A DNA stretch of 48,000 bases, taken from positions 1 to 48,000 of the IMG/VR virus record IMGVR_UViG_3300044626_001580, one strand, 5' to 3'. Position 1 is the first letter of the stretch. Each line of letters opens with the position of its first letter. This DNA comes from a virus. The position numbers were made by a program, and so were the translations under genes. This document shows positions 1 through 39,336 of this stretch, piece by piece. Under the pieces are notes generated by a model that was given only the letters and a program-made list of their open reading frames with translations, was not told where the DNA came from and ran no database searches.

Positions 1-91
1 GTCTACCCTTTTATAAAAAAATGGAGTAGAATCAGCATAAGTCTAAACCGCTACTCGGTACACACACATCTAAAATCAGAGGACTGGAATC

Positions 92-3000
92 ATGAGAGGT
101 AAATTTAGCAAAAAAAATTCTACCGCTGCAACGGTAGAATTTTCTAAAAATATTAATTGTTTAAATAACGACGCGGAATTAACAGCCGTTAAGGATAATG
201 ATAATACCTCTCTACCGTCGTTGTCAAGTGATTTTAATACTAAAATTACGGATAAAGTAATTAAATCGTTAAAAAAATTAGAATTACCGCACCTTAAGGA
301 ATTAGTGGAAGGATCAGGGATTCATCCAGAAGTCCTTAAAGCTAATAAAATTTTCTCCCTCGTAACTTTACCTGGTGAACTTAACGACGCTCACAGTTAT
401 TTAAACACTTACGGCGACGGCAAAAACGTTAACGCCAACGGAACTTTAAGGAAGAACGTTGCCGATAAATATTGGAACTTAGACTTAGGCGGATGGTGGG
501 TGAGCGGCGCAGAAGTTACTTTTAACGGTTCTACATTTAATTGTGCGGAAATTGAGTGGGGGCAATTTAAGCCAGATACTCCCAGACAATATACAGAAAA
601 AGATAAAAAAGACCATGAGCATATCTGGTTTGATTTAGAACTGATCAATCCAAAATTAGGCGAAGCCTTAAGCCCTAAGAAAAAAATAATTAAATATGAG
701 TCCCCAATTGGTGAAGCAGCAAGGCTAATGCTCTTGTCACCATCAGAGCAGAGTTTTAGAGCTTACGTTAAAAAGTTCTCGGACAAAGACAAATTAAATA
801 TAGCTAAGAATTTAGATTATAAAGTGGTTAGAGAGTTCTGGAAATTTGTGGCCAAAACAAATATGCCAATAATTATTTGTGAGGGTGCAAAAAAAGCTCT
901 TAAGCTCTTATCGCATGGTTATGCGGCCATTTCGGTAGCTGGGATTTACGGCGGATACCGTAACCACGAAACTCGGATTTGGGAACTAAGAAAACTACAT
1001 AAAGATTTTCACGCATTCATGGTCAACTACCGTGAATGGTACTTCTGTTTTGATGGGGAGTCTAAACCCCACGTTAAGCACAATATAGAAGTGGCCATAA
1101 CTCGGACTGGCGATTTAATCAAAAAAGCCAACGGGAAAAATACCATCCGCGTAATAGAGTTACCTGCGCCTAAGCTGTGGGGTGAAAAAACCGGAGTAGA
1201 TGATTTTATCGTTAAAGAAGGGGTTGGGGAATTTGATAAGTTATTTTATAACGCCCCAACCTTAATGGAATGGAAGAGTATTAGTACAGAATTACTAACC
1301 AAATCCTTAGATCCAGAAAAATCCCTTCATTTAACAAAAGAAGATTTAACTTACTCAGAGTTAATGGGGAGACACTATTTACCTGAAGATTTATTTAGAA
1401 AAATACCTAAAAATGAGCAGTTCATTGGATTAAAAGCTCCAATGGGAAGTGGTAAAACACACTCCTTTAAAAATTTAGTTGGAGATACTCTAAAACTGGG
1501 CGGCGCACCACTGCTTATTACTCACCGCGTCCAGTTAGGTCAAGCCTTAGCTGAAAAATTAGGCGTGCATTACCTCTCTGAAATTAAGAACGAAGACGAC
1601 CGCACCCAAGCCCTGAATGGTGGGTTAGGCTTGTGTATTGACTCTCTCCATGCCGCTTCTAAACTACGCTTCCATCCCTATGAGTGGCAACGTCCTTGCG
1701 TAATTATTGATGAAGTTGAGCAGGTCGTCCAACACTTAATATTTAGTAAAACTTCTGTTAAAAATAACCGCGACTTAGTCATAAGAAATTTAGGCGAGTT
1801 ATTAAAAAATTGCCTTAACTCAGGGCAAAGAATAGTCGTTGCAGATGCTCACCTTACAGATATCTCCCTAAGATTTTTACGTGGCATTATCCAAGAAGCC
1901 AGTGGTCAAGACATTGAACCATTCATTGTTACGGCGGATGAATTTTATCTCTTAGGCGACGGTGAAAGACTGTGCTACTACTATAAGCACACACAGCCCG
2001 TAGCTTGGTTTGAAAACTTACTTTTACACATTCAAAAAGAGGGTGGGGCGTATGTTTGTACTGATGGGCAAAACGTTTGCGCCACTTATGGAACACAAGC
2101 TTTAGGGAAAATTTTAAAAGAACGCTTCCCTCACTTAAGAGTTTTAGTAATTGATAGTGATACATCTCAAGACCCTAACCACCCCGCTTTTGGGATTATG
2201 GATAGGCTAAATGAGGAAATAGTAAATTGGGACATTGTTATAACGTCACCTTCTGTTGGGACGGGAATCAGTATTGATGTTCGCGGACATTTTAAAGCCG
2301 TTTTTGGTCGGTTTTCGGGAATGATTACGCCAAAACAAGCTGTTCAGCAACTTGGAAGGGTCAGAGAAGATGTTCCACGCCACGTTTTTGCTGCAACTAG
2401 GGGATTGCAGGAAATTAGCGGCGGATCAACTTCCATAAAATTAATTAAGGCTCATGAAGAGTTTAAGTATGGTGAAGTTATCCAGCAGTTAAAATCTTCT
2501 GGTAACTTTATCTATGATGAAGAGTCAGAAAAGCACATGGGCGGAAGTTGCACAGCCCTTGATACCTATTGTGAACTAGCATTAAGGAGTAATGCTGGTA
2601 ACAAGGGATACAGGGATTTCGTTATGACTGCGCTAAAAAATGAAGGATATGAAATAGTTGAGCCGGACGATTTAGACGGCGATCGCAAAAAAGAACTTAA
2701 GGATGAAGTTAAGCAAAATAAGGAAGAGCTTAATTCCCAAGACACGGGATTAAAATTCAATGCGGACATTAGTGTTGCTGAAGATAAAATCGAAAAATTA
2801 AATTTTAATGGTGAAGAAATTGCAATAGTAAATCGGGAAGGGGTCAAGAAACTTAAGGATGAGCGGAAAATAGATAAATACCAAACTGAAAAATTAAACA
2901 TTATTGCAAGGTACAATACTACGAGGTTAAGCGAAGAATTAATTCAATTAGATAAAGATGGGATGTATAACGATTTACGCTTACGCTATTGGTTTAACCA

Positions 3001-3598
3001 GGGTAATGAGTTTTTAGCGGATAGAGATTTTAGGGTTTTAGATAAAGCTTTAACCTTTGGGCGCAGCTTTAAGCCCGACTTAAACCACGACGTGATTAGT
3101 CCCAAGATTAAGAAATTAAAAAGCATGGGGATAGAGTTTTTGTTTGAGAAGAAAATTATCCACAATAACGATGAAGGATTACGGGCATGGATTAGTGACT
3201 TAAAAGAGACTAACCTAGTTGAGTTAAAAGCCTTGACTGGGTTAAATATAGGAGCGATGGAAAGTCCTGTAGAGATAGTCAGGAAGATTTACAAGTTATT
3301 TGGCTACAAGCTAAATGCAGTAAAAAGAAGTGGTCGCAAGGATGCCTTTGGTAAACGCCACATCTTCTATGAAATCCTGGATAAATACCAAAATTATGGT
3401 GGGGAAATTTTAAATAGATGGCTAACTTTGGATAAGAAAAATTCATTGGAAAAGAAAGTAACTAAGATTTGTCTGGAGAATGGTAAGAGAGTTGACCCAC
3501 CCACAGATGAAGAATTAGCACTTTTAAAATTATCCACAGCGTCAGAGGTGGCAGATTATTTAGCTTGGTGCGAAAAATACGAATACGACGCAGCTTAA
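92..3598 (+). CDS. CyRepA1-like plasmid/phage replication protein (primase-helicase)
   Basis: A 1168-residue protein probably initiates or drives DNA replication. Residues about 255-290 (IIICEGAKKALKLL, then SVAGIYGGYR) and about 315 (CFDGE) form the TOPRIM-like DUF3854 region of cyanobacterial plasmid Rep proteins. A helicase-type domain follows: Walker A APMGSGKT at about 449, Walker B VIIDEVEQ at about 537, a motif V-like SPSVGTGISID at about 719 and an arginine-finger-like QQLGRVRE at about 751. The last 300 residues are charged and unassigned. The start is supported by AGAGGA eight bases upstream. In the Synechocystis plasmid pSYSA, CyRepA1 is controlled by an antisense RNA; a candidate antisense unit lies inside this gene's 5' end. 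The family call is by recognition, not alignment; a virus-type primase/helicase is the alternative. Confidence 0.78.
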   Translation: MRGKFSKKNSTAATVEFSKNINCLNNDAELTAVKDNDNTSLPSLSSDFNTKITDKVIKSLKKLELPHLKELVEGSGIHPEVLKANKIFSLVTLPGELNDAHSYLNTYGDGKNVNANGTLRKNVADKYWNLDLGGWWVSGAEVTFNGSTFNCAEIEWGQFKPDTPRQYTEKDKKDHEHIWFDLELINPKLGEALSPKKKIIKYESPIGEAARLMLLSPSEQSFRAYVKKFSDKDKLNIAKNLDYKVVREFWKFVAKTNMPIIICEGAKKALKLLSHGYAAISVAGIYGGYRNHETRIWELRKLHKDFHAFMVNYREWYFCFDGESKPHVKHNIEVAITRTGDLIKKANGKNTIRVIELPAPKLWGEKTGVDDFIVKEGVGEFDKLFYNAPTLMEWKSISTELLTKSLDPEKSLHLTKEDLTYSELMGRHYLPEDLFRKIPKNEQFIGLKAPMGSGKTHSFKNLVGDTLKLGGAPLLITHRVQLGQALAEKLGVHYLSEIKNEDDRTQALNGGLGLCIDSLHAASKLRFHPYEWQRPCVIIDEVEQVVQHLIFSKTSVKNNRDLVIRNLGELLKNCLNSGQRIVVADAHLTDISLRFLRGIIQEASGQDIEPFIVTADEFYLLGDGERLCYYYKHTQPVAWFENLLLHIQKEGGAYVCTDGQNVCATYGTQALGKILKERFPHLRVLVIDSDTSQDPNHPAFGIMDRLNEEIVNWDIVITSPSVGTGISIDVRGHFKAVFGRFSGMITPKQAVQQLGRVREDVPRHVFAATRGLQEISGGSTSIKLIKAHEEFKYGEVIQQLKSSGNFIYDEESEKHMGGSCTALDTYCELALRSNAGNKGYRDFVMTALKNEGYEIVEPDDLDGDRKKELKDEVKQNKEELNSQDTGLKFNADISVAEDKIEKLNFNGEEIAIVNREGVKKLKDERKIDKYQTEKLNIIARYNTTRLSEELIQLDKDGMYNDLRLRYWFNQGNEFLADRDFRVLDKALTFGRSFKPDLNHDVISPKIKKLKSMGIEFLFEKKIIHNNDEGLRAWISDLKETNLVELKALTGLNIGAMESPVEIVRKIYKLFGYKLNAVKRSGRKDAFGKRHIFYEILDKYQNYGGEILNRWLTLDKKNSLEKKVTKICLENGKRVDPPTDEELALLKLSTASEVADYLAWCEKYEYDAA
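110..143 (-). terminator. Hairpin with U8, minus strand, within rep coding sequence
   Basis: A perfect 12-bp inverted repeat (arms 114-125 and 132-143, six-base loop) is followed on the minus strand by eight T residues (117-110), the form of an intrinsic terminator. The dyad centre reads CTACCG-N6-CGGTAG, so it also presents the promoter-associated CGGTAGA motif twice in opposite orientation and could instead be an operator for a dimeric regulator. Confidence 0.5.
110..195 (-). ncRNA. Candidate short antisense RNA against the rep mRNA 5' end
   Basis: The segment between a minus-strand promoter-like block (198-227) and a minus-strand hairpin with a U tract (110-143) would give an RNA of roughly 80 nucleotides, fully complementary to codons about 7-34 of rep. 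Countertranscript RNAs of this size control initiator synthesis in many plasmids. The promoter and terminator are visible; the RNA and its function are inference. Confidence 0.42.
198..227 (-). promoter_or_regulatory. Antisense promoter candidate inside rep
   Basis: Read on the minus strand, TTGACA (227-222) is followed by ACGACGGTAGAG and then by TATTAT (206-201, 15-base spacer) or TATCAT (203-198, 18-base spacer). The -35 plus GACGGTAGA block is the one found at the + strand operon promoters of this window, here pointing the other way inside a coding sequence. Transcription would start near 190-195 and run towards the rep start codon. Confidence 0.5.
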
Positions 3599-3941
3599 TC
3601 CTCCTTAACTTAAAAATAAATGTTATTTAAACTCAACTCCGGCTTAACTTTAATTCAGCCGGGGCAAAAGTCATGATTATATAAATTTAGGGAGAATAAG
3701 CCCAAACGCCCGCGCAATAAGGGTTTTGAGTTTTCCTGTTTTAAAAACGCCGGCGGGCAAATTGTCTTAGAAATTAGGTTTTAGTTTGTAAAGTTTTATG
3801 AAGCGTCAGGCAAAATCCCTATTATAAGAAAAAAACCTTGACACCATTAATGACGCTTGCCCGCCAGCGTAAAATTTTTAATTACTTGACAACGGTAGAT
3901 AGAGTATGGTAAAATTTAAGTGTAGATATTTAAATTAAGTT
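3599..3941. other. Structured intergenic region downstream of rep; possible origin or structured RNA
   Basis: There is no gene in these 343 bases. They hold a short dyad CCGGCT...AGCCGG near 3642-3665, and nested long-range complementarity: CGCCGGCGGGCAA (about 3750) pairs, with one mismatch, with TTGCCCGCCAGCG (about 3857), and within it AAGCGTCA pairs with TGACGCTT. The GC-rich arms stand out from AT-rich surroundings. The place beside an initiator gene fits a replication origin; a structured leader for the methyltransferase is the alternative. The promoter of the next gene sits at its right end. Confidence 0.4.
3886..3915 (+). promoter_or_regulatory. Promoter of the methyltransferase gene (ACGGTAGA family)
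   Basis: TTGACA, an 18-base spacer beginning ACGGTAGATA, then TAAAAT. The start codon at 3942 is about 20 bases after the expected transcription start. Confidence 0.65.
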
Positions 3942-6320
3942 ATGGCATACATTACAAAGCTAGAGGAAGAATTAGAGTTAGAAATTCTCCAGTTAAAAAG
4001 AGAATTGGATAGGGTAAGGGGTCTTGGCAAGAATAAAATTATCCAAGGCGATTGTTTGGAGGTTTTAAAAACTTTGCCTGATAATTATTTTGATAGTTTA
4101 ATAACAGATCCACCGTGCGGAATTAGCTTCATGGGTAAGAATTGGGATGATCATAAAGGCGGGATGCTCCAATGGATTAATTGGATGTCTGAGGTTATGG
4201 CAGAAAGTTTAAGGGTTATGAAACCAGGAGCGTGTGGTTTAGTTTGGAGTATCCCAAGAACATCGCACTGGACTGGCATGGCTTTAGAGTTGGCAGGGTT
4301 TAGGTTGATTGATATTGTGCATCATTGCAATGGGTGTCTATCTGAAGATACGGAAATATTTGTAAAAGATAAGGGGTGGGTACACTACCAACAATGTGAG
4401 ATAGGAGATACAGTAATAGGCTATAATATAGAAAATAATTCATTTTCTTACCAAAGTGTTACGCAAACCTACCGTTTCGACTACTCGGATACCGCATACC
4501 GAATTGAATCAGATTCTACAGAGCAAATTGTCTCCATCGGACATCGTTGCATTATTGAACAAAACGGAGCGTTTGTATTTAGAGAAGCCACTACACTTGA
4601 ACAGCAAGTATCAGTTCCCTTTTTGGAAACAGTGCCTCTGTTGCAACACACCATTTCAGACACACAATGCTTTTCAGGCTATGAGAAATATAACCTGCTC
4701 AGAGACTTGTGCAAAGAGTCTAATAGCCAAAGCCAAGACAGGGAAGAGAGTACCGACCTGTGTATGTCAAGAGTGCCAGATGGAGTTCTATCCCAAAACA
4801 AATCAGTCAATTCAGAAGTTTTGTTCTCGAATGTGTGCAAGCAAGGACAAAAAGAAGAATCCCAAAACACTGGAACATCTCAAGAACATTGCAAAACTGG
4901 GTCGTGCGGGTTGGACGGAAAAGAGTCTGGAATCTTATGCAGTCAGCATGGGTGGCGAGAACAATCCGGCATGGAAGGGCGGTGTAACGATATTCAAAAA
5001 GAAAGGGAATTACAAGAATGTTCGTTATGTCAGATGCCCCAAGGATTATCTTGCAATGGCAAGGAAAGATGGTTATGTAATGGAGCATCGTTTGATAATG
5101 GCTCAACAATTGGGAAGATGTCTTTTAAGAACGGAATCTGTGCATCACATCAACCACGATCCTACAGACAACAGGATAGAGAATTTAATGCTATTTCAGA
5201 ACAACAGTCATCACAAGCTATACGAACACGGCAATCTGGATGTAAAACCACTTTGGCAACCGTAACACCCTTTCATTATGAAGGCGTTGTTTGGTGTGTA
5301 TCTGTACCTGACACAGCCTTCATAGCAAGACGCAATGGTAAAATATTTGTAACAGGTAATAGCGGCTTCCCCAAGGGACAGGATATTAGCAAAGGTATAG
5401 ATGCGTTCTATGGTGCTGAAAGGGAAATTATAGGGAGCGTTAAGCATGGGAAAAAAGCGTTAGGCTTGATGAATGATGATAGCTGGGAAGCTAAAGAATT
5501 TGTAAATGTTACAAAACCTAATACACCCGAAGCAAAACAATGGGACGGTTGGAAAACCCCGGCACTAAAACCAGCCATTGAGGGTTGGTGGTTAATTCAA
5601 AAACCAATTAGTGAGAGTAGTATTGCTAGGAATATTTTAAAACACGGCGTTGGCGGGTTGAATATTGAAGCGTGTAGGATTGGGACTGAGGGATGGAGTC
5701 GCAAAAACGGAACAGTCCCTAGTAAATTTTCTGGTAAATACAATAACGGTGTTGATTATCAAAGATACGAACTAGGAAATATCCGGTCATCGCAAAGTCG
5801 CTACCCTGCCAACCTAGTCCTTTCCTGTAGTGCTGGTTGTGACGGTGATAACCATATCCCAGATTGTCCGGTGTCAGTTATTGGTGAACAGAGCGGGATT
5901 AGTGTTAGTACGGGAGGAAAGACTAAAACAGGATTACAAGGTTCTTGTTATGGAGATTTTAAAAACCAATCATTAGCACAAAATTCCGGCGGGTTAGGGG
6001 ACGCAGGAACAGCCGCAAGATATTTCAAGCAACTACCATTTGACCCTGAAACGGTAAATAGCGTTTACTACCAAGCTAAAGCATCAACCAAAGATAGAAC
6101 CTGTGACGGCACGGTAGAAAATACACACCCGACGGTTAAAAGTACAGCACTGATGGAATATTTTATAAAACTTATAACTCCTCCAAATGGCATGGTTTTA
6201 GATCCGTTTGGCGGTAGTGGTACAACTGGAGTTGCTGCTAAAAACTTAGGATTTAACTACACATTAATTGAAAGAGAACAGGAATATATTGAGATTATTA
6301 ACCAGCGTTTAAATAATTAA
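3942..6320 (+). CDS. Site-specific DNA methyltransferase (amino-methyl type) interrupted by an intein
   Basis: The precursor has 792 residues; removing the intein (residues 132-473) leaves about 450. The extein shows the beta-class motif order: a catalytic-type motif TDPPCGISFMGKNWD near residue 50, and the AdoMet-binding DPFGGSGTTGVAAKNLG near residue 755. Joining HHCNG to SGFPKG across the intein restores a block common in phage DNA methylases, which confirms the insertion point. Cysteine replaces the usual tyrosine of DPPY; related phage enzymes also vary there. Residues 1-25 look like a coiled coil. It probably methylates phage DNA at adenine N6 or cytosine N4; the target cannot be read from sequence. 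It has its own promoter and a strong downstream hairpin, so it is probably transcribed alone. Confidence 0.8.
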   Translation: MAYITKLEEELELEILQLKRELDRVRGLGKNKIIQGDCLEVLKTLPDNYFDSLITDPPCGISFMGKNWDDHKGGMLQWINWMSEVMAESLRVMKPGACGLVWSIPRTSHWTGMALELAGFRLIDIVHHCNGCLSEDTEIFVKDKGWVHYQQCEIGDTVIGYNIENNSFSYQSVTQTYRFDYSDTAYRIESDSTEQIVSIGHRCIIEQNGAFVFREATTLEQQVSVPFLETVPLLQHTISDTQCFSGYEKYNLLRDLCKESNSQSQDREESTDLCMSRVPDGVLSQNKSVNSEVLFSNVCKQGQKEESQNTGTSQEHCKTGSCGLDGKESGILCSQHGWREQSGMEGRCNDIQKERELQECSLCQMPQGLSCNGKERWLCNGASFDNGSTIGKMSFKNGICASHQPRSYRQQDREFNAISEQQSSQAIRTRQSGCKTTLATVTPFHYEGVVWCVSVPDTAFIARRNGKIFVTGNSGFPKGQDISKGIDAFYGAEREIIGSVKHGKKALGLMNDDSWEAKEFVNVTKPNTPEAKQWDGWKTPALKPAIEGWWLIQKPISESSIARNILKHGVGGLNIEACRIGTEGWSRKNGTVPSKFSGKYNNGVDYQRYELGNIRSSQSRYPANLVLSCSAGCDGDNHIPDCPVSVIGEQSGISVSTGGKTKTGLQGSCYGDFKNQSLAQNSGGLGDAGTAARYFKQLPFDPETVNSVYYQAKASTKDRTCDGTVENTHPTVKSTALMEYFIKLITPPNGMVLDPFGGSGTTGVAAKNLGFNYTLIEREQEYIEIINQRLNN
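4335..5360 (+). other. Intein in the DNA methyltransferase (342 residues)
   Basis: The intein starts with Cys132 (CLSEDTEIF, block A), continues through GDTVIGYNI and a block B SIGHRCIIE, and ends with VVWCVSVPDTAFIARR and KIFVTGN before an extein Ser474. The last residue is Asn as needed for cyclisation; the usual penultimate His is Gly, a variant seen in some phage inteins. Between about residues 235 and 435 the intein frame stays open but looks non-natural (rich in Q, S and C), because the same DNA encodes an HNH endonuclease in the +1 frame. Splicing is inferred, not shown. Confidence 0.8.
4456..5265 (+). CDS. HNH homing endonuclease encoded out of frame inside the intein
   Basis: This frame is shifted +1 relative to the intein. 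It carries two Cys4 zinc-finger-like modules (CLCC with CSETC, then CQEC with CSRMC, residues about 60-145), a basic linker, and an HNH core with MEHRLIMAQQLGR, SVHHINHDPTDNRIENL and SHHKLYEHG at about 210-260, ending with its own stop. The cysteine and histidine pattern leaves little doubt that this frame is coding. The open frame begins at a GTG at 4456, but only the part after about 4625 looks like the endonuclease, so the true start is unknown (a later GTG, TTG or the ATG at 4681 is possible). It would spread the intein by cutting intein-free alleles. Confidence 0.78.
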   Translation: MLRKPTVSTTRIPHTELNQILQSKLSPSDIVALLNKTERLYLEKPLHLNSKYQFPFWKQCLCCNTPFQTHNAFQAMRNITCSETCAKSLIAKAKTGKRVPTCVCQECQMEFYPKTNQSIQKFCSRMCASKDKKKNPKTLEHLKNIAKLGRAGWTEKSLESYAVSMGGENNPAWKGGVTIFKKKGNYKNVRYVRCPKDYLAMARKDGYVMEHRLIMAQQLGRCLLRTESVHHINHDPTDNRIENLMLFQNNSHHKLYEHGNLDVKPLWQP

Positions 6321-6323
6321 CAA

Positions 6324-6371
6324 TTTTAAAATACCAATCTAAAAAATAAAGTTTAGATTGGTATTTTAAAA
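6324..6371 (+). terminator. Perfect 20-bp hairpin after the methyltransferase
   Basis: Arms 6324-6343 and 6352-6371 are exactly complementary around an eight-base loop, and the right arm contains TATTTT. It lies directly between the methyltransferase stop and the next promoter, so it probably ends that transcript; the symmetric AT-rich ends would let it work in both directions. Confidence 0.65.
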
Positions 6372-6378
6372 TAAGGAC

Positions 6379-6407
6379 TTGACGACGGTAGATAACTAAT
6401 GTATAAT
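6379..6407 (+). promoter_or_regulatory. Promoter of the recJ-thymidylate operon (ACGGTAGA family)
   Basis: TTGACG, 17-base spacer beginning ACGGTAGATA, then a consensus TATAAT. It precedes a chain of closely spaced genes from 6434 to 11188. Confidence 0.75.
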
Positions 6408-12005: not shown

Positions 12006-15000
12006 TTACCTATCATATAAACCACCTCTGTTTAAGCTACCTCCAGGACGACGCTCTTGCTTGATTGTCTCTTGGATTTTTGCTTCTAAAGCTTTTTCAA
12101 ACAAGGCTTTGTTAATGTTGCCGTTGCCACCCTCGCTATTATTAATGTTCACGTTAGGCGTAATGTTAATCGTATCTCCACTTCTTCCTACGTTATTAAT
12201 ATTCCCTAAACCTTCACCTATCATACCGCCGCTACTAAAACTCTCCAATTTATTACTACTGTTTAGTTGATTCCATAACTTAGTTTCTTTTGGAGTTAAA
12301 ACCCGTTCACCTTCGTTAGCGATAATTAAGCGTGGGTTAAACCCACTTATCGCCCTTTCCTTGTTTAATAAATCCCCAACCATTCCGCCTTTAGCAAAAC
12401 TAGAGAGCGTAGCTGAACCAAAGTCAAATGCTCCGCTAGAACCAAAGTCTACAAAGTCTAATCCGCCGTCTAAACCACCTAAGCTAAAACCATCGCTAAA
12501 GTCAAATGCTCCGCTAGAACTAAATGGGATTGCGCTACTGCCTTCGAGTATTCCAAAACTACTCTCTCCAAACGCTCCAAAAATACTATCTAGCACTCCG
12601 CCATCTTTGCTACCTGCGCCCATAATATTTTGCAAGGCTAAAGCCGCTTGTTGTAGCATTGTAGCGGACATACTTAGATTAGCTCCCGCGTTATTTAAAG
12701 CGATCGCGCCCACGTCTTTAGCTTTATTGCCAAAAATAATTTCAGTTAATTTACCAAATAGTTGGTTAGACAGTTCCTTACTTGCAACAGCAGCTAAATT
12801 GCTTAAAATACTTTTTGCAATCTCGCTAAAAGCATCGACTATACTTCTTTTACTCAACTCCGTCTTTTTCTTTTCTAAGTCTCTCTGCGCTCTATCTAAT
12901 TCTTTTAGTTGTTTGTTATTGCCTGAATTTTGGTATGCGTTTCTTACTTCCTGAATATTACCGGACGTATTCATTATAATGTCGCGGCGTTTCTTAGCAA
13001 TCTCATCTAGGGATTTATTAATATCCTGTAAATCGCCAGCGTTTTTATTAACAGAGTCGTTCATGAAAAATCCCTTTAGGATATTGTCAAAATCTCCTTT
13101 AATTCCGCTAATAGCCTCGGTGAACATATTAAATTCTTTCGCAACATTGTCTAGTTTTAACTCGTTTAGCTTAAGTAAATTTTCACTAAGTACAGATATT
13201 TCTTCTGCTGAATAATTACTTGATAATCCTAGTTTAGCTATTTCGTTTTTTTCCTTCTCAAAATCCATCTTAATTTGTGATAAAAGCTGTGCTTTTTGCA
13301 ATTCCTTGTCTCTAACTCCGAACAAACCCCGACCTCTTATTATCTCGGAAGAAATTGCACTACCGGATGAATTTAATTTTTCCATCCTGCCGAGTTCAAT
13401 GCCTCTATTTGTAATCGGCGCGAGCTTAGTTTGGTAAGAATTTTCTGCGTCAAGGTTAGATTTTTCTTTTCCGTAATTACGGAAAGCTTTTAGTCGTTCT
13501 ATTAATTTTTCTTGTGGACTAAGTAAGGTGTTACCTTGAATTTCCAATAATTGTTTCTTGTAAGCATTAGTTAGCTCGTTAGTTTTTATTGTTAATTCAT
13601 TGGTTAAGCTGACTAAACTAACCATCCCATCCTTATTGTCAATCGCAAACCGTTCATTGTCTAGTTGCAATGATTTCATTTGCGAGGCTTGGATAGTTTG
13701 CGATTTAGTTAATTCGTCGTTAGCTTGCTTAATTCGCTTAACTGTATCGGCATAATTAAAGTTAAGATCAACGCCCTCTCTTTTAACAGAATTAACATTG
13801 AGAATGGCTTTAAATTCTTTCTGAAAAGCTGCTTCACTCATGTTACCGCCCTTACCTCCGCCATCATAATAACGTCTTTGGAGATCTAGTAATTGTTGGT
13901 ATTGGTCACGGGTTAATTCTAGTAAGCTAATATTTCTTTGAAGTGATGGAATTTTTAAAACCAACGGATTTAGCGGGTCAATTTCCTCAAGTTTTTGAAC
14001 TAACTGTAACTGTTGTTGTAGTTGTTCAATAACTTTTGATTGTTGCGATATATCCTGCTCGCTTAATCTGAAAAACTCTTTTTTGTCAAAATCTTTCATT
14101 GACGCTTTGAGGATGCTATCAATATTGGATTTTAAAAATTTCAAGCTATTTTTAGCTTCTGCATTTTTAAAAGCTGTAGCTTTAAAACTTAGATCGTTTG
14201 TCTGGATTGCGGCTGCGGCTAATCTCGGATCATTAGGAAATCTCTTCATTGCCAGATTAAATGCGGCTTGTAAGTCCGGTTTTTGCGCGATCGCTCCATC
14301 CGTTTCTCTAATAATTTGCTTCAACGACTCAACATCTTTCTCTAATTTGCGGCGTAATTCATTAAATTGGAGACTAAACATATCCGCATTACTCATGTTA
14401 GGAGATAAACCTTTTAACACCGTTATTCTAGTCCCTAGAGTAGAATCTTTCGTACTACTGATGTCTCCTATCGCGCCTTTTTGAGAGGACATAATAAGCC
14501 TGTAAGCCTCTAGCCTTTGTTTTAGCTCATTTTCTTTGATTTGTTCAGGATTTAGATTGCTGTTAATTTGATTAGTTTGATATTGTTGGGCAGCGGTGTT
14601 TAATTTAAGTCTACTAGCTTGTGTTACCGCTTGCTGCATTTGGTTGGGTTGAATACTTCCGCCTTGCATAACAATCTGCACCAATTGTCGCGCTGTATTG
14701 CCGTACCGATTTTCTGCTTTGGGGAGGTAATTACCTAGCGTAATATCACCATCCCCTACTCCTAATGATGCGTTAGGATTTCCCGCAAAAACGGTAGATA
14801 AAACTTTTCGGAAGGAGTCTAGCTTTTGCCCTCTACTGTTCTGTTTTAAGTATTTCTGAACAAAGACTAATTGCTCTTGTGGACTCATTTGAGACAGAGC
14901 GTCTATGTTTGTACCCAGTCCTCTAGCCGTAGCGGGCATGAACTGAATTAAACCTGTTGCGTTTGTGCGTTTGTTCCTAGCAGATGGCGAAAGTGTACCA

Positions 15001-18000
15001 CCTGTTTCATACAGCATCGTTTTAAGTAGGTCTTCAGGGTTTGCTCCTACGCTTTGAGCTATTTTAGCCACGCTTTGCAGGAACTTGGTATCTATACGTG
15101 GATCTAGCCCTGGAACAAGCGGAACTTTTGGAACGGGTTGACGATTTCTTGATGTCTTGGGCGTATTAACAGTGTTTTGCACGCCACCTGAATATTCTTT
15201 TGATAACTTAGCGGTCAGCCTACTTGCTTGCGAGTCTGGCAATGAGTTACGTTGATTGTTCTCGCTAGGGGCGTATTCAATATGTAGGTGTGCAGCGTCG
15301 GCATCCCTCGCAGTACCAGGGTTTCGAGTCCCGAATTGCGTACCTCTTCCGCCTGCCTCACCCACAGTACCTAGTAGATCACCCGTCTTAACCTTTTGTC
15401 CCACCTGTACATTTCTGTCTAGCAGATGTCTCATGTTTAAGTGAGTGATTTTCTTGCCTTCAAATTCTATAGGCATATCTAGCTTGATGATCACAAGCTG
15501 TTGGGGTTGATACCCAGGAACTAATGGGTTTGCATCGTCTGTATTCTTAGTTCCGCCTACTCGACTTTGCACCACAGTACCAGCGAGAGGGCTAAAAATC
15601 TTAGAACCTATTGGCGCGAAGATATCATCACCAATGTGACCCCTCGCAGAGTCTATTGACGAACTACTATTTTCAACAAAACCAACCTTCCCTTTTGCTT
15701 TTAACCGCGTACTAGGCGTTGAATTATTATCTACTCCATAAAATTGCTTTAAAGCTCCAATCGGATTACTAACAAACTCTTTAGCACCCTGCTCTAACTG
15801 TTGCCCAGCTTTTTCCCCAAACACCGTGCTAACCGCCGATTGAACACCACCCGCTAAATTTTGTAACAAGCCTTGTCCGGTAGCCAGGGAAGCTAACCAG
15901 TTGGAGGTTTTTATTCCCATATCAGTGATCGCAGTCCCCACGCGATCAAAGCCGTTCTCAAAAGACTTAACTAAATCTGCAAACTTAGTACCAAGACCTT
16001 CTATCCATGAGTTGCTAGTTTTACTTAAGTCTTTAATACTATCTTCAGCTTTTTTAGTTGCGTCTACAACACTGTTAGATAAGTTATTTATATTCTTATT
16101 AATTTCATCAACCGTCCTGTTTACGTTTTCAAGACTGAGATTAAAGTTATCGGCAATACTAGAATCTATCGAGATAATTTTTCCTGGTAAACTCCGTTGT
16201 AGTTCTATAGCTTGTAGCTGAATATCTTGGACGTTATTCTGGTAGTCAATCCTCTGTTTTCTTGCTTCTAGTCGTTGTTTCTCTATTTCGGTTGTTTGGG
16301 AAATTACATTAATAATCCCCTCAATAAACTGAGTGTAGATATTGTCCCCAGCACCAATTAAAGCCTCTCTAAGTTTATTCTGTACTTTAGAGTTTTCAAA
16401 GGTCTTTTGTGCTTTCTCAAATTCAATACCCACAGCTTGAGATTCTCGAACGGCTGCGCGATAATAGTCGGTGACTTGCTTTGTTTGTTGGTAGAGGCTT
16501 TGGATTAAGTTATATTTCTGCTCTGCAATTTGTTGTTGCATATCAACAGTTTGGATTTGCATTTCCTTAACTTTTATAAAGCCACTTAAAATCTCTTTTT
16601 CTTTACTTCCATCAATACTTCTTTCTTGTGCAGCCTTTAAGGTGTCTATACCGCTTCTTTTATTTAAATTAAGGGCGTTTAAGACTCCATCTAAATCATT
16701 AACTTCCAATTGAGCGGACATCTCTTGGATTTGTTTTAAATTATCGGCAATTTTACCAGTCAGAGTGGCTTGAGTTTTTAAGTTGTTCGTATATTCCAGT
16801 TGCCCTGGTAAAACGTCCCCACTGCTGCCAAGATTAAATAAATTAGTTTTCTCTAAACTTAATGCCGTATCTCTATATTGTCTTAGATCGTTAAACTTAG
16901 CTTCTAAGTTCCTTATTTCAATTGCAAATTTTTGCATTTCTGTTAAGGAATTTTTAATAGCCTTAGTCATCTTGTCTTGTTCTTGAATAACTGTGGCTAA
17001 ATCTTGTTCAGTTACCTTAATTATTTTATTAATTTGTTCAATTTCACTTTGATAAAGTTTGGGATTTTTCTTTAGTTCTTCCCAATACTCCAAATAAGTT
17101 TTTAAAGTTTCTACTTGTTTGTCTAAATTAGCTTTAGTTCCGCCAAACAATTCTAAGGGCTTTTCTCTTCTTTGACTTAATTCTTTTTCTTGTTCTTGCA
17201 GTTCTCTTAATTGTTGAATGTCGCCAGGATTGTTAGCAACAACAGCCCGACGCTTCATTTTAATATCATCCAAAGATTTATCAATGGCTTGAATTTCTTG
17301 GATAGCATCTTGTATAGCAGGAGAGTTACTATCTTTCAAAATATCGAAAGTGTTTTGTTGCCCAATAGTTGTTTGTTTGGCACTATCCTCCATTTGTTTT
17401 ATTAGTTTTTTTGTATCGTTATCAAATGGGTTAAGCGTAAATCCTTCTCTAAATGCTGAAAAGTTATCACGGCTAACTTTAGAGGATGGATTTAATAATT
17501 TTCTTTGTTCATTAATAGACTGAGTAACGTTTCTAGTCTGTTCGCCAATTGCGCCGCTGCTATCCTTGAAATTCATCATTGTTTCATCAATAGCTTTCAT
17601 CGCCATTGATAAAACAAACATCTGAGCGGCTAAAGTTGCAATACTTTGACTCATTCCCAGCAATGCACCCTTAGCCCCTCCCGCAGAGAATAAAATTCCT
17701 TTTAAATACGTCGCAAACATTAACCAAACAGGACTTCCTAATTTAATTAAGGTAATCAGTAAGACACTTTTTAAGAGTTGGAAATTCTTAGTTACTAAAT
17801 CTATACCAGACGCAAAAACACTTAAAGAAAAGTTTCTGAAAGGCAGTAAAGTTTTACCAATACTTTCCTGTAGCTCAGTTAAGGAATTATTGAATTTATT
17901 AGTTATCGCCACTGAAGAATTAACGGCATCTCCTACGCCTGATGAAGTTTGCGCTTTTAATTGTTGAGCAAATTTTGGCAAAAAGTCCTCAGCTAAAACC

Positions 18001-21000
18001 CTGCCCGTTGCTAAGAGTTGGTTCATGGACTGGGTGGTTGTTCCGTAAGCATTTGCGGCGATTTGCGAAGCGTTGGGGATTGCTTCAGCGAGTTGTTGTC
18101 TTAATTCCTCTTGAGATACAACCGTTTTTCCAGACATTTGCTCAAGCGCGGTAAAAGTCCTTTGCTGCTTGTCTAAATCTAAACCATAGACAGCCGAAGC
18201 TTGAGTGACTGCGCTAACGATCTGGCGAGATTGATAGCCTTCTATGGGAGTATCCTTAGTTGCCTGGAAGAATTTACTGCCACTTTCTAAAGTTTGGCTT
18301 AAGTCAACGTTGAGTCTTTTTGCTTCCGATCTTAAAAATGCAATATTTTTAGCACCCTCTGAAATGCTTCCAGAAGTGAACTTAATCCGTCTCTCTAAAT
18401 TCTCAAAGTTAGCGGCGACTTCTATGCTTGCGGGAGCTAAATCTAAGATAATTTTCCCTACGGCCAACAAAGCTAGGACTTTAACAACATTACCTATAGA
18501 AGATTTAACAAAGTCCATCATCTCGCCAAATTTCTGGACTTTACTCATTCCCTCTACAAAACTATCAAAAGCCACCTTAGCCTGGATGAACCCTTCCTTA
18601 ATTTTTTCTGGCATCTTAAGGAAATCTACAAATAATTCCTTAGCTGCAACAATACCGTTAGCTAACCCCTCGCCTAATGCTGCCGATACGTTAGGATTGG
18701 CGATTTCCTTAAGGAAATCTAAATAACCCTTAAATCTTTCCTTAGCTTCCTTAAATCCTGGGATACTTCCTAATCCTTTACTAAAGCCTCGGCTTAATTT
18801 ATTTTTAAAGTTTTCCGCAGTAGAAGTTATATCTCCATCTTCTACAGCAGATTTAATATCGTTCATTAGCTCTATAAATATGCCAATAATACTAGAATCT
18901 TCTAAAAACCCAAGTCCCTTAGTAAATCCTTCGCCTACGTATTTACCAATTCTAATACCCCACCTTGAGGGAGATTTAATTTCTAATTTTTCCTCAACGG
19001 TATCTATTACTGTATTTGCTAATTTTTCAGAAGATGCTCGTAAATCTTTTAAGGAACTATCCAAACCTTCGGTCATGCCCGCACCTACATTTTCCCCAAC
19101 GCTAGGTAAGTTTAGTTTATTAACGTTAACTATTTTATCTGTTTTATTTTGGACGCTAGATATTTGACTTAAAGTTTGTCCTAATTGACTGCCCAACCTT
19201 GTCGAGCCAACGTTATTATTCTCACCTAAAGTTTTAGTGATTAATTTAATCTCTTCTCTTGCTTTAACTCCCATCTGCTTAATGGTCGCCGCCATATTTG
19301 CGGCTTCATCTAAATTACCAGACTTAGTTAAAGTTTGTAAAGTTGCAAAACTTTTGTTAAATTGCGCTGCAATATTTCTAGCTGATTCTAGTCCAACCCT
19401 TGCTTCAGGGCTTAAATCTGCATCTTTCTCCCTAGTCTTAAAATCTTTTAAATATTCTTGCCCTTGGGGAAACTGTGCATTTATTCTAGCAAGTCTTTGG
19501 TTGTCAGTGTATTTTTCTCTAGCGGTTCTAGTGTCTTTTTTGGGATTTTTATTTAAGTCAGTTAATCTAGCTTGTTCTCCTAAAGTTTCCAATACTCTAG
19601 TTTGTAAAGTTTTTAATTCGGGATAAAACTTAACAGCTTTTTCTAATGTTTTAGCTAGAGATTGTTTAGTCTTTGCTCCAGAATCTAAAAATTCAACAAT
19701 ACCTGCTCTCATTTCTTCTAAAAAAGCAGTATACTCATCAAACTCTGGTTTAATGTCTTTACCTATTTGTCTCGCGTTTGGTAAATTTCCCATCATGGAA
19801 GAAAAGTCATATTCTCTTCTCCATTCTGGTTTTTGAGGAACTGCAAAAGTATAACCCTCCGCGCCGTTAAATCCTGCTTTTTCAATTTGCCTTAAGGTTG
19901 AGCCGTCACCCAATACAGCTTTAAGAGTTCTAACTAAACTGTCTTTCTCATCTAATTGAGATTTAAAAAAATGTAAATTAGGCTCACTCTTTATCCCTTT
20001 AGATAAAGACGGACTTACGGGATCTATCGCGTCTCCCAAAAACGACTGTATTTGTTCATTTACCATAGGCTTGGTTAGGAAGGGAAGTAATGCGTGACCC
20101 TTCCCCGCTCCTGGTATAAGAGACATTAATGGGGACTCCTCCATAAGTCCCGGCATACCATAAGACATCACCTTGAGAGTTGCCTTATACACTGGATGTT
20201 CTTTGTCCGCTACATTTTTACCGCCAAACATAACAACGTTTAAAGGATCGAACTCTCCAACTAAGGATTGGTAATTTTTCTGACTAGCCGTAGTCATTAA
20301 ATTATTTACTGGTGCTGTCAATCCCAATCCCTTTACGTTCGTTATTCCTGCCCTTTCTAGGATTGCGATCGCTTCCTCGACTATGTAAGACCCACCACTT
20401 GTCCCCGCTAACTGAATGGGTTTGTCTGGATATTTTTTTCGGTAAGCCATAGCTTCAGCGGCCATCTTTACCGAATCCGGGTTATATCCTTTCTCCAAGT
20501 TAGTATGTAAAAGCATATCAAACGGCATAGGCTCAGATGCAGGTCTTTCAACTCCGTCCGCGCCAACCACCGTGCCACCACTTAGATCTGCCCTAAACTG
20601 ATAAATCTGCCCTAAATTATTTTTATCATTTGAATAAGGGTTAGTAACGGGAACAGAATAAGACCCCGGCAAAATCCTTTTGACTAAGTTCTCTGCAAAA
20701 AAAGTATTTCGCCCACCCTTCTGGAAGTCAATACCTCCAGTAATTAAAGAAATTGATTTAGCTTTTTTTATATCTTCGTTGTCAGCGACATTTACATTTT
20801 CTGACATTTTTGCAGCATCTTGCGCGGATTGAGCGAGTAATACTCTTTTTCTAATTCTTAAGGGTTGTGCGCCAACTTTAAGAACTTGTCCTGCTGCGGT
20901 ATATGCAATTTCTTGAATTTCGTCAACTATAGGCTGAAACGCTGCTTTAAATTTCTCTTGCGCCTGAGTTTGATTTTTAAATACGAACGCATCTTCCAGT

Positions 21001-21638
21001 GCGCTAACAATATCGTCTTCAAATTTTTGAATACTTTCTGGCGTAACCTTAGATAAAGGTTTCGACACTGCGCGGGTAAAAGACTGAGTAGCTCCAGCGA
21101 CATCTAATCCTAAGTTTTTCTTAAACCCAGACATTAAATTTTTACCAATCGTTCTACCAAACTCCTCAGTAAGTCCTGTTCCTAAAGACCGACCTAAACT
21201 TAATTTAGCCGAATCCATTACGGCTTTTTCTACTGATTTTAATTGTCCGACTATTTCTCTAGAATTGTTATTATTATTAATTACTAAATTGGCTTTTTCT
21301 TTATTTACTTCTACATCTACTCTCACTCTAGCTCTGCCGTTACTACCTTTGGTTAGCGACGCTAATTCCTTATTTAAGTTAGTTAATTCCCTGTCATCAA
21401 CAAAAACTTTTAAAGGATTGTTTTTAAAATAAGTTTGAGTTTGCTTAAAGTGAGTTACCTTTAAGTCAAAATGTTTATTAAGGTTTTTTAGCGAGTCATC
21501 ATTAACGCCTATGGTTAAATTAAGATCTTTCTCTAGAAATTGAGCTTGTTTAATAGCCTCGACCCTAGCCTTTTTTATATCTTCCATTAGCTTGGAGTAA
21601 TCACCAACTAACTCAACAACTAATTGTGGTAATTCCAT
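12006..21638 (-). CDS. Giant tail tape measure protein with hydrolase, M23 peptidase and lytic transglycosylase domains
   Basis: At 3210 residues this is a very long tape measure. With the usual 0.15 nm per residue it predicts a tail near 480 nm. Order of parts: coiled N-terminus; alpha/beta-hydrolase-like region about 295-540 with a nucleophile elbow AGTSGGS (Ser414) and possible Asp464 and His515; tape measure domain about 1070-1250 (FENLERRIKFTSGS, QEELRQQLAEAIPNA); hydrophobic segments about 1290-1370; M23 metallopeptidase about 1990-2125 with GHIGDD and HLHIEY zinc ligands; SLT transglycosylase about 2175-2330 with YETGG and GLIQFMPATA; coiled coils; and a C-terminus with GERVLTPKE. Two coiled segments repeat (KSLDDIKMKRR and KSLDEIAKKRR). 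The M23 and SLT domains would open the cell wall during DNA entry. The dense antisense open frames are compositional shadows. Confidence 0.93.
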   Translation of the reverse strand: MELPQLVVELVGDYSKLMEDIKKARVEAIKQAQFLEKDLNLTIGVNDDSLKNLNKHFDLKVTHFKQTQTYFKNNPLKVFVDDRELTNLNKELASLTKGSNGRARVRVDVEVNKEKANLVINNNNNSREIVGQLKSVEKAVMDSAKLSLGRSLGTGLTEEFGRTIGKNLMSGFKKNLGLDVAGATQSFTRAVSKPLSKVTPESIQKFEDDIVSALEDAFVFKNQTQAQEKFKAAFQPIVDEIQEIAYTAAGQVLKVGAQPLRIRKRVLLAQSAQDAAKMSENVNVADNEDIKKAKSISLITGGIDFQKGGRNTFFAENLVKRILPGSYSVPVTNPYSNDKNNLGQIYQFRADLSGGTVVGADGVERPASEPMPFDMLLHTNLEKGYNPDSVKMAAEAMAYRKKYPDKPIQLAGTSGGSYIVEEAIAILERAGITNVKGLGLTAPVNNLMTTASQKNYQSLVGEFDPLNVVMFGGKNVADKEHPVYKATLKVMSYGMPGLMEESPLMSLIPGAGKGHALLPFLTKPMVNEQIQSFLGDAIDPVSPSLSKGIKSEPNLHFFKSQLDEKDSLVRTLKAVLGDGSTLRQIEKAGFNGAEGYTFAVPQKPEWRREYDFSSMMGNLPNARQIGKDIKPEFDEYTAFLEEMRAGIVEFLDSGAKTKQSLAKTLEKAVKFYPELKTLQTRVLETLGEQARLTDLNKNPKKDTRTAREKYTDNQRLARINAQFPQGQEYLKDFKTREKDADLSPEARVGLESARNIAAQFNKSFATLQTLTKSGNLDEAANMAATIKQMGVKAREEIKLITKTLGENNNVGSTRLGSQLGQTLSQISSVQNKTDKIVNVNKLNLPSVGENVGAGMTEGLDSSLKDLRASSEKLANTVIDTVEEKLEIKSPSRWGIRIGKYVGEGFTKGLGFLEDSSIIGIFIELMNDIKSAVEDGDITSTAENFKNKLSRGFSKGLGSIPGFKEAKERFKGYLDFLKEIANPNVSAALGEGLANGIVAAKELFVDFLKMPEKIKEGFIQAKVAFDSFVEGMSKVQKFGEMMDFVKSSIGNVVKVLALLAVGKIILDLAPASIEVAANFENLERRIKFTSGSISEGAKNIAFLRSEAKRLNVDLSQTLESGSKFFQATKDTPIEGYQSRQIVSAVTQASAVYGLDLDKQQRTFTALEQMSGKTVVSQEELRQQLAEAIPNASQIAANAYGTTTQSMNQLLATGRVLAEDFLPKFAQQLKAQTSSGVGDAVNSSVAITNKFNNSLTELQESIGKTLLPFRNFSLSVFASGIDLVTKNFQLLKSVLLITLIKLGSPVWLMFATYLKGILFSAGGAKGALLGMSQSIATLAAQMFVLSMAMKAIDETMMNFKDSSGAIGEQTRNVTQSINEQRKLLNPSSKVSRDNFSAFREGFTLNPFDNDTKKLIKQMEDSAKQTTIGQQNTFDILKDSNSPAIQDAIQEIQAIDKSLDDIKMKRRAVVANNPGDIQQLRELQEQEKELSQRREKPLELFGGTKANLDKQVETLKTYLEYWEELKKNPKLYQSEIEQINKIIKVTEQDLATVIQEQDKMTKAIKNSLTEMQKFAIEIRNLEAKFNDLRQYRDTALSLEKTNLFNLGSSGDVLPGQLEYTNNLKTQATLTGKIADNLKQIQEMSAQLEVNDLDGVLNALNLNKRSGIDTLKAAQERSIDGSKEKEILSGFIKVKEMQIQTVDMQQQIAEQKYNLIQSLYQQTKQVTDYYRAAVRESQAVGIEFEKAQKTFENSKVQNKLREALIGAGDNIYTQFIEGIINVISQTTEIEKQRLEARKQRIDYQNNVQDIQLQAIELQRSLPGKIISIDSSIADNFNLSLENVNRTVDEINKNINNLSNSVVDATKKAEDSIKDLSKTSNSWIEGLGTKFADLVKSFENGFDRVGTAITDMGIKTSNWLASLATGQGLLQNLAGGVQSAVSTVFGEKAGQQLEQGAKEFVSNPIGALKQFYGVDNNSTPSTRLKAKGKVGFVENSSSSIDSARGHIGDDIFAPIGSKIFSPLAGTVVQSRVGGTKNTDDANPLVPGYQPQQLVIIKLDMPIEFEGKKITHLNMRHLLDRNVQVGQKVKTGDLLGTVGEAGGRGTQFGTRNPGTARDADAAHLHIEYAPSENNQRNSLPDSQASRLTAKLSKEYSGGVQNTVNTPKTSRNRQPVPKVPLVPGLDPRIDTKFLQSVAKIAQSVGANPEDLLKTMLYETGGTLSPSARNKRTNATGLIQFMPATARGLGTNIDALSQMSPQEQLVFVQKYLKQNSRGQKLDSFRKVLSTVFAGNPNASLGVGDGDITLGNYLPKAENRYGNTARQLVQIVMQGGSIQPNQMQQAVTQASRLKLNTAAQQYQTNQINSNLNPEQIKENELKQRLEAYRLIMSSQKGAIGDISSTKDSTLGTRITVLKGLSPNMSNADMFSLQFNELRRKLEKDVESLKQIIRETDGAIAQKPDLQAAFNLAMKRFPNDPRLAAAAIQTNDLSFKATAFKNAEAKNSLKFLKSNIDSILKASMKDFDKKEFFRLSEQDISQQSKVIEQLQQQLQLVQKLEEIDPLNPLVLKIPSLQRNISLLELTRDQYQQLLDLQRRYYDGGGKGGNMSEAAFQKEFKAILNVNSVKREGVDLNFNYADTVKRIKQANDELTKSQTIQASQMKSLQLDNERFAIDNKDGMVSLVSLTNELTIKTNELTNAYKKQLLEIQGNTLLSPQEKLIERLKAFRNYGKEKSNLDAENSYQTKLAPITNRGIELGRMEKLNSSGSAISSEIIRGRGLFGVRDKELQKAQLLSQIKMDFEKEKNEIAKLGLSSNYSAEEISVLSENLLKLNELKLDNVAKEFNMFTEAISGIKGDFDNILKGFFMNDSVNKNAGDLQDINKSLDEIAKKRRDIIMNTSGNIQEVRNAYQNSGNNKQLKELDRAQRDLEKKKTELSKRSIVDAFSEIAKSILSNLAAVASKELSNQLFGKLTEIIFGNKAKDVGAIALNNAGANLSMSATMLQQAALALQNIMGAGSKDGGVLDSIFGAFGESSFGILEGSSAIPFSSSGAFDFSDGFSLGGLDGGLDFVDFGSSGAFDFGSATLSSFAKGGMVGDLLNKERAISGFNPRLIIANEGERVLTPKETKLWNQLNSSNKLESFSSGGMIGEGLGNINNVGRSGDTINITPNVNINNSEGGNGNINKALFEKALEAKIQETIKQERRPGGSLNRGGLYDR

Positions 21639-22866: not shown

Positions 22867-23090
22867 AATTCTATCTCCAGGTTTGTGTTAATTATGGTTG
22901 TGTTGTTGTCTTTAACTTCTGGGGGAATTTTTATCTTAAATTCTTCCCCCGTTTCTGAGAATAATGAAAGTTCTCCAGATAATCCGCCCCTAAAAAACGC
23001 CGCGCCACATAAAATTTTTGTCTCGCTAGAATTAAGTCGGCAGTTAAATAACGCAACAATGTTTTTAGATATATCTGCAAGGACTTTCAT
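22860..23090 (-). CDS. Small tail-region protein, unknown
   Basis: A 76-residue protein between the tail tube and chaperone genes, overlapping the latter's start. It opens with a helix (MKVLADISKNIVALF) and continues with strands. There is no membrane segment and no recognised family. Gene order suggests a tail-assembly role. Confidence 0.6.
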   Translation of the reverse strand: MKVLADISKNIVALFNCRLNSSETKILCGAAFFRGGLSGELSLFSETGEEFKIKIPPEVKDNNTTIINTNLEIELC

Positions 23091-23108
23091 TTAAAATTAG
23101 TATCCTGA

Positions 23109-23822: not shown

Positions 23823-23845
23823 AGTTATTTTTTCCTTTAAAAAAA

Positions 23846-24220: not shown

Positions 24221-24222
24221 TT

Positions 24223-34462: not shown

Positions 34463-34512
34463 AATATTATCGTGGTTCTTAGTTTGAGTCACTCCTCACT
34501 ATTTACTATGGT

Positions 34513-34550
34513 AATCCCTTAACTCAGCACCAGAAGTTAAGGGATTTTTT
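34513..34550 (+). terminator. Terminator of the NADAR operon
   Basis: Perfect 12-bp stem (34513-34524 with 34535-34546) followed by T6. It also separates this operon from the end of the portal gene on the other strand. Confidence 0.85.
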
Positions 34551-34556
34551 TATTAA

Positions 34557-35885: not shown

Positions 35886-35914
35886 TTGACGACGGTATAT
35901 AAACCATGTATTAT
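35886..35914 (+). promoter_or_regulatory. Promoter of the Dam/C5 methyltransferase operon
   Basis: TTGACG, 17-base spacer beginning ACGGTATATAA, then TATTAT. The first gene starts 36 bases downstream behind AGAGAGG. Confidence 0.75.
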
Positions 35915-37468: not shown

Positions 37469-38484
37469 TGAAAAAGTTTTTATGGTTTTCGCATTTTAGC
37501 GGCGGTGGCGGCTCAACTTTGGGAGCAATCCAAGCTGGGTTTATGCCTTTGCTGGGGATTGAGTGGGATAAGAAAGTGGCGGAATTATATGAGAAGAATT
37601 TAGGTAAAGTAATTTGCCAAGATATAGGAGAGGTAAGTATCCTAAGTGTTATAAAACATATTCCATTAAAAGAGGCAAGGGAAAAGAATAATGAGATTTT
37701 AGTAATCCAAACTTCGCCACCATGTCAGGAGTATTCCCAATTAAAACTAAATAAAAATCCTAATTCCGAAAGTGCAAAAGTCATTTGGAAGACAAGGAAG
37801 TTTTATGCTTTATTTAGACCTGAATATGTAATTTTAGAAAACGTTAGGGCTTATGCTAAAAGCGAGGTTTATATTAAATTTAAAAATTACCTTAAGGAAT
37901 TAGGCTATGAAATAAGTTTTGAGGAGATAGTTAACTGTGCTGACTATGGCGTGCCACAAACTCGCCAAAGATTAATTACTATTTTTAACTATAGAAATTT
38001 CCCTGCCGTAAGGATTAGTTCTACGCATAGTAAAAATAATGGTGAATGGGTAGGATGGTACTCAGCAATTGAAGATTTAATCCCTAATTTAAAAGAAGTT
38101 AGTTTAACCAGAAAACAACTTAACTCTCTAAGTTTAAGGAATAAAGGCTTTAGTAATGCCAAGGTAGTCGTAGAAAGAGTTGGCGTAAGGAGTGGGGTGA
38201 ATAAAATCCGTGAGGAAGATTCACCAATTTGGACTTTAAAAGCATCTTTAGGAAGCGATGGAAAGGGTGCGAATAGGGAAAAGTTAATAGATGTAAGCAT
38301 AAATGGCGTTGTAAAAGGCTTAAACGTGGCGTGTTTGGCTAGATTGCAGACTTTTCCGCCAAGTTATGAATTTTCTGGCAAAAACGCCTTGGATGTTCAT
38401 GTAATTGGCAATTCTGTACCACCATTACTTATTAAAGTAATTTGCGAGGAGATAAAAAATACTTTTAATACTTTTGGGGATTGA
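37468..38484 (+). CDS. C5-cytosine DNA methyltransferase
   Basis: At 338 residues it has the full motif set: AdoMet motif I FSGGGGSTLGAIQAGF (about 9), catalytic TSPPCQEYS (Cys about 88), VILENV (about 121), QTRQRL (about 164), a target-recognition region of about 100 residues, and motifs IX-X with LARLQTFP and VIGNSVPPLL at the end. It would make m5C in phage DNA. No cognate restriction enzyme is near. Its stop codon overlaps the -35 of the next promoter. Confidence 0.9.
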   Translation: MKKFLWFSHFSGGGGSTLGAIQAGFMPLLGIEWDKKVAELYEKNLGKVICQDIGEVSILSVIKHIPLKEAREKNNEILVIQTSPPCQEYSQLKLNKNPNSESAKVIWKTRKFYALFRPEYVILENVRAYAKSEVYIKFKNYLKELGYEISFEEIVNCADYGVPQTRQRLITIFNYRNFPAVRISSTHSKNNGEWVGWYSAIEDLIPNLKEVSLTRKQLNSLSLRNKGFSNAKVVVERVGVRSGVNKIREEDSPIWTLKASLGSDGKGANREKLIDVSINGVVKGLNVACLARLQTFPPSYEFSGKNALDVHVIGNSVPPLLIKVICEEIKNTFNTFGD

Positions 38485-38509
38485 CGGCGGTATATAAAAA
38501 GTATATAGT
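38481..38509 (+). promoter_or_regulatory. Promoter overlapping the C5 methyltransferase stop
   Basis: TTGACG (whose TGA is the stop codon), 17-base spacer beginning GCGGTATATAA, then TATAGT. Confidence 0.65.
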
Positions 38510-39333: not shown

Positions 39334-39336
39334 AAA

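Follow-up and report, generated by a model that had tools for sequence, protein, structure and literature searches.

A candidate antisense RNA unit within the 5′ end of a CyRepA1-type replication gene in a cyanophage genome

The DNA analysed here, a 48-kb window covering positions 1 to 48,000 of IMG/VR record IMGVR_UViG_3300044626_001580, belongs to a cyanophage, as judged from family matches to capsid, terminase, tape measure, thymidylate synthase and dCMP deaminase proteins. It also encodes a class II ribonucleotide reductase (28533-31916) with an intein that carries a LAGLIDADG domain, and minor tail proteins and a DNA polymerase III alpha subunit are annotated in a 72.7-kb relative (G004). 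The nearest named relatives of the capsid are those of Cylindrospermopsis phages, and the cyanobacterial repeat GCGATCGC is present in 18 copies in the window. No ParA or integrase domain was found among the proteins scanned, and we therefore do not call the element a plasmid; in a phage genome, the plasmid copy number invoked in a preliminary description of this DNA may instead mean the rate or timing of replication. Relatives differ in several places away from the locus studied here. The tape measure protein (12006-21638) has 3210 aa, vs. 4255 aa in G004 (ORF 34257-47024), with low-similarity gaps between relatives. Positions 46352-46906, near the 3′ end of an ORF (44973-46895) in a region with many inverted repeats, are reversed relative to their flanks in G004 (72228-71678, minus strand) and form a candidate invertible DNA segment.

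At the left end of the window lies rep (Table 1). Rep combines DUF3854 with a helicase part and resembles CyRepA1 proteins over its full length, with about 32% identity between residues 74-1115 and plasmid CyRepA1 proteins. Codons 1-73 form an N-terminal extension that has no counterpart in other CyRepA1 proteins. By inspection, there is no good in-frame start 3′ of the antisense unit described below and before the conserved residues H67 and E70, so rep has to be translated through that unit. Upstream of rep, G004 carries IS200/IS605-type tnpA and tnpB genes (22652-24422; 2819-4589 in L006), which are missing at the matching place in G001.

Table 1. Features of the rep 5′ region and members of the promoter family, in window coordinates
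Feature	Position	Strand	Basis or remarks
rep, CyRepA1/DUF3854 replication protein (primase-helicase type), 1168 aa	92..3598	+	ORF; Pfam DUF3854, 7.9e-32
CGGTACA element in the rep leader	56..62	+	
Predicted long-range rep mRNA pairing, Shine-Dalgarno/start region (82-101) with 205-232, hairpin enclosed	82..232	+	
Predicted antisense RNA, ~80 nt (about 83), two stem-loops, opposite rep codons 6-34	108..191	-	predicted from its promoter and terminator
Intrinsic terminator hairpin, perfect 12 bp, 6-nt loop, then U8 (110-117)	114..143	-	sequence
Variable hairpin loop	126..131		CTGCAA in window; CGCCAA in L003, L005, L006; TTGGCG in L004
Antisense promoter TTGACA-18-TATCAT, 11/12	198..227	-	sequence; same in all five genomes
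Shared promoter element ACGACGGTAGAGAG in the antisense promoter spacer	208..221	-	also in + strand operon promoters
Family promoter TTGACA-acggtagata...-TAAAAT, before methyltransferase gene	3886..3915	+	
Family promoter TTGACGACGGTAGATA...TATAAT, before RecJ-like operon	6379..6407	+	
Family promoter, before 35951 operon	35886..35914	+	
Family promoter (one mismatch in element), before 38911 gene	38481..38509	+	

The preliminary description had proposed a compact antisense unit on the minus strand within the first 45 codons of rep, consisting of a TTGACA promoter block, a transcript of about 80 nt and a 12-bp hairpin followed by U8. Both the promoter and the hairpin were confirmed, and the predicted RNA ends (~191 and 108-110) agree with the proposed length. 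The hairpin reads exactly AAAATTCTACCG-CTGCAA-CGGTAGAATTTT and lies 22 nt past the rep ATG. Its energy of −15.0 kcal/mol is the second best among in-gene hairpin-plus-T-run sites of the window, the single better one (42103) being located at a convergent gene end. The run of eight U residues is found on the minus-strand side alone, the plus side having merely UUUUCU. A 12-bp stem was obtained in 0.85% of 2000 synonymous-codon permutations of rep, and the single copy in the window rules out a dispersed repeat. For the promoter, an alternative −10 hexamer, TATTAT (206-201), would leave a spacer of 15 nt. The antisense RNA is predicted to fold with −23.7 kcal/mol (z = −3.8) and to stop about 18 nt inside rep, leaving the ribosome-binding site and start codon uncovered; the start-codon region thus does not lie under the RNA. 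Rfam covariance models, including RNAI, CopA and other antisense RNAs, gave no match at E ≤ 1 in positions 1-4000.

By sequence, the locus has an own promoter opposite rep, a defined 3′ end and an RNA that is complementary throughout to the 5′ portion of rep mRNA, as do cis-antisense regulators of replication initiators. In simulated windows of random sequence with the trinucleotide make-up of the real one, promoter-terminator units occurred at a mean of 0.13 per window under cut-offs (promoter ≥10/12, terminator ≤ −9 kcal/mol) that are looser than the rep unit itself, and none of 60 simulations produced a unit as strong. The sequence signals of the antisense unit are clearly not due to chance.

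Exactly three promoters in the 48 kb match the consensus at 11/12 positions, at 3886(+), 6379(+) and 227(-). The first two head + strand operons, and all three carry ACGGTAGAnA directly or nearly directly after the −35 hexamer. The element ACGACGGTAnAGAG has five matches in the window against 0.34 expected, so the spacer element that the preliminary description had seen in both the antisense and the operon promoters is real. Related sites stand in front of further non-structural operons (35886, 38481 and 43956) and, in G004, precede both rep and a divergent operon. When viral contigs were scanned for this promoter, all matches came from the same phage group. The antisense promoter thus belongs to the phage's own promoter family, which is the strongest argument for its use. 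The suggestion that one regulator might drive the operons and damp rep fits this, co-regulation being plausible within one promoter family. The element lies 6 or 9 nt from the −10 hexamer in the antisense promoter vs. 10-12 nt in the + strand promoters, and for this reason the strength and control of the antisense promoter may differ from theirs.

Other members of the family showed features of their own. The methyltransferase gene and its promoter (3901-6377) are missing in G003 and G004, where the flanking sequences meet at the two promoter-element copies (3889 and 6382); this looks like a deletion by recombination between promoter repeats. Behind another family promoter, positions 35951-36331 encode a small, possibly RNA-binding protein whose match to Phage_ProQ_C_like is weak and falls below the cutoff. 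In L006, the segment just upstream of rep (4697-4840) holds a family promoter (TTGACGACGGTACAGAG...TAATAT), a 7-codon ORF and a bidirectional intrinsic terminator (AAAGCCCG...CGGGCTTT), in this order, together a possible attenuator of rep transcription.

We compared the locus with four records (L003, L004, L005 and L006) that are 98-99% identical to the window in this region. Stem and promoter are invariant in 5/5 genomes, which in five near-identical sequences is no independent sign of selection. The loop, the one part of the unit to have diverged repeatedly, occurs in three forms, and that of L004 is the exact reverse complement of the form in L003, L005 and L006. Because the stem is palindromic, L004 simply has an inverted spacer. 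At least two events hit the six loop bases; with 46 events spread uniformly, the probability of this is about 0.003. Both alter amino acids, whereas beyond position 450 most changes in rep affect the third base of a codon. Other dense clusters of change in rep lie at 394-400 and 1405-1450. Matched sense and antisense loops were predicted to pair with −6.1 to −7.6 kcal/mol and mismatched ones with about −2 kcal/mol, a difference of the kind that counts for antisense RNAs. Inversion would abolish loop complementarity in one step.

Loops do not appear to be hotspots in every hairpin, as most others in these phages are constant, among them those at 6323, 25992, 34513, 43632 and 44313 and that of the terminator preceding rep. 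One further in-gene hairpin (45176-45197) has an identical stem and a changed 4-nt loop, CGTT vs. AATA in G004. Polymerase template switching is known to even out inverted-repeat arms of more than 9 bp and to invert their spacers in coding genes (PMC8604942), and it acts likewise in RNA hairpins (PMC8794818). It would explain the loop inversion equally well, selection and mutation being inseparable with five sequences, and some of the loop change may be purely mutational.

More distant relatives were sought among viral and genome contigs (protein and alignment scans), in plasmids and phages by tblastn, in 388 cyanobacterial genomes and with two DNA-pattern scans, directed at the start of rep and at the hairpin. 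Apart from the four copies with 98-99% identity, these searches turned up no sequence related to the rep 5′ end; identities between 33% and 98% were not represented, the closest further CyRepA1 being about 32% identical. Thirteen further records of the phage group carry the promoter element, none with a match to rep. Among 81 CyRepA1 genes surveyed, the window's is the only one with a promoter-terminator unit inside the rep coding region, and just two minus-strand terminators lie between +400 and +3400. We therefore rejected the unit as a general feature of CyRepA1 coding regions.

Versions opposite a leader ORF exist in two other groups. In another cyanophage group (L022, positions 3640-4020, and L023, L025 and L030), a leader ORF of 39-42 codons upstream of rep is accompanied by a minus-strand promoter (TTGACC-17-TAAAAT) and has a minus-strand terminator 21 nt inside it, an arrangement that looks like a second antisense unit with the pSYSA layout. 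In L025 and L030 the stem has lost one base, which puts the leader out of frame, so it is not the peptide that is maintained. In the Nostoc CyRepA1 replicons L082 and L110, a 45-codon leader ORF lies about 400 nt upstream of rep and has a minus-strand terminator 21 nt past its ATG; across both groups the leader ORFs span 39-54 codons. Whereas these ORFs are separate from rep, the window unit lies within the rep frame. Because the terminator position is so similar (21 nt vs. 22 nt here) and the 73-residue extension of Rep is unmatched, we infer that a leader unit may have been fused into the rep frame in this phage, a likeness in layout across few independent groups, with no sequence similarity between the units.

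The interpretation given in the preliminary description is supported in part, and antisense control of replication of this general kind is already known. The precedent cited in the preliminary description, an antisense RNA to the CyRepA1 gene of the Synechocystis plasmid pSYSA, was misquoted: in Synechocystis 6803, asRNA1 opposes ssr7036, a leader ORF upstream of the CyRepA1 gene slr7037, and the ssr7036 transcript, but not its peptide, raises the pSYSA copy number (PMC9978351). The likeness nevertheless extends to the CyRepA1 replicon, an antisense 3′ end in the 5′ part of the front ORF, an own promoter and stem-loops. pSYSA asRNA1, however, is about 150 nt long, is processed by RNase E and has a separate leader-ORF target, whereas the window RNA is predicted, is about 80 nt long and lies inside a phage rep frame, with no separate leader ORF upstream as its target. 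In the I-complex plasmids (IncB/O, IncK), as with CopA and ColE1 RNAI, an antisense stem-loop likewise acts against rep or primer, and in IncK the loop bases, not the stem bases, determine incompatibility (PMC10724649). Those systems occupy plasmid leader regions and are experimentally proven, whereas the loop variation here comes from the sequences of five genomes. Another likeness is to OOP of phage lambda, a short terminated RNA that starts beside gene O and is antisense to the end of cII. Like OOP, the window RNA would come from a promoter convergent to phage replication genes; unlike OOP, it is contained in the 5′ end of the initiator gene, and its promoter shares the early-promoter element. 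Three things are new: the position within an initiator frame in a cyanophage, the early-promoter element held in common with other operons, and the polymorphism by loop inversion.

We consider it somewhat probable (about 0.55) that the minus strand of rep yields an active cis-antisense RNA that lowers Rep; the existence of the RNA, its action on rep and its negative sign are predictions from the sequence signals. The RNA would start near 191, from an early-type family promoter and alongside the other early operons, and would stop at the U8 hairpin just downstream of the seat of the initiating ribosome. Pairing with the 5′ part of rep mRNA would begin between the complementary sense and antisense loops and would lower Rep through RNase cleavage or a block just downstream of the initiating ribosome. 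The convergent promoter might also, or instead, interfere with rep transcription, as at lambda pO. With less Rep, replication would be limited while other early operons are on. The rep mRNA itself was predicted to fold strongly between 82 and 232 (MFE −47.5, z = −4.05; helix 95-101:205-211 with a probability of 0.86-1.0), and it is possible that the antisense RNA would affect this fold of the start region in either direction.

Several other readings, whose probabilities overlap with that of an active antisense RNA and with one another, were weighed against it. Convergent transcription as such might be what matters, the short RNA having no role in pairing and the terminator only preventing polymerases on the minus strand from entering the region of the rep promoter. 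The order and size of promoter and terminator are like those of lambda pO and OOP, pO activity reduces pR transcription (PMC3985674), and L006 has a second, bidirectional terminator upstream of rep (4796-4830). A conserved stem with diverging complementary loops, however, is read more easily as an RNA-RNA interaction, and we regard interference alone as unlikely. A stronger reservation applies to regulation by the hairpin in the sense strand, where hairpin and start-occluding helix would form a cis attenuator or a translational control of rep mRNA and no antisense RNA would be needed. The fold described above is consistent with this, but the weak plus-strand tail gives the hairpin a polarity that favours the minus strand, and the minus-strand promoter would be left unexplained; we hold this to be very unlikely.

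The palindrome might also be a dyad operator in DNA rather than a terminator. The CGGTANA sites at 56-62(+), 119-125(-), 132-138(+) and 211-217(-) are grouped within 165 bp around the start of rep and are the window's only cluster of at least three within 170 bp, and CAACGGTAGA is common to a hairpin arm and to the promoter element at 3889. On this view, a phage regulator that recognises ACGACGGTAnA in the other promoters would bind the element at 208-221 as well as CAACGGTAGAA and its inverted counterpart in the hairpin, and this protein would control rep through repression or a roadblock. Two of the four sites are, however, the arms of one palindrome, leaving three that are independent; the other family promoters have a single element and no dyad; and the hairpin looks like a typical terminator, its U8 suitably spaced from a promoter. 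This makes the operator cluster improbable. We judge it equally improbable that the hairpin is neutral. In that case, a perfect inverted repeat would have arisen by chance in an N-terminal extension under little constraint, template switching would have kept its arms perfect and inverted its spacer, and the nearby promoter would be weak or silent. Template switching is documented in genes and RNA hairpins (see above), the first 73 Rep residues have no homologs, and the loop at 45176-45197 has changed with its stem intact. A neutral origin would leave unexplained the 11/12 family promoter just upstream on the same strand and the U8 run, and other hairpins in the same genomes have kept their loops.

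A more specific version of the antisense reading, rather unlikely in our estimate, is a pSYSA-like brake on replication in which the leader target became part of the rep frame. Its palindromic stem would allow a one-step inversion of the specificity loop and so create an escape variant. If so, inversion would swap the sense for the antisense loop, rep mRNA would go unseen by the antisense RNA of near-identical relatives, and the variant would escape superinfection control or incompatibility. Among CyRepA1 replicons, we found an experimental description of antisense control for pSYSA only, and no described cyanophage case with a CyRepA1 initiator. The promoter element, also written ACGACGGTAnAGA, offers a handle on the early regulon of the phage. 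If the antisense RNA is real, rep would be a compact, testable case of a virus that limits its own replication from inside its initiator gene, and the natural loop-inversion polymorphism asks whether antisense specificity evolves by flipping the spacer of a palindrome.
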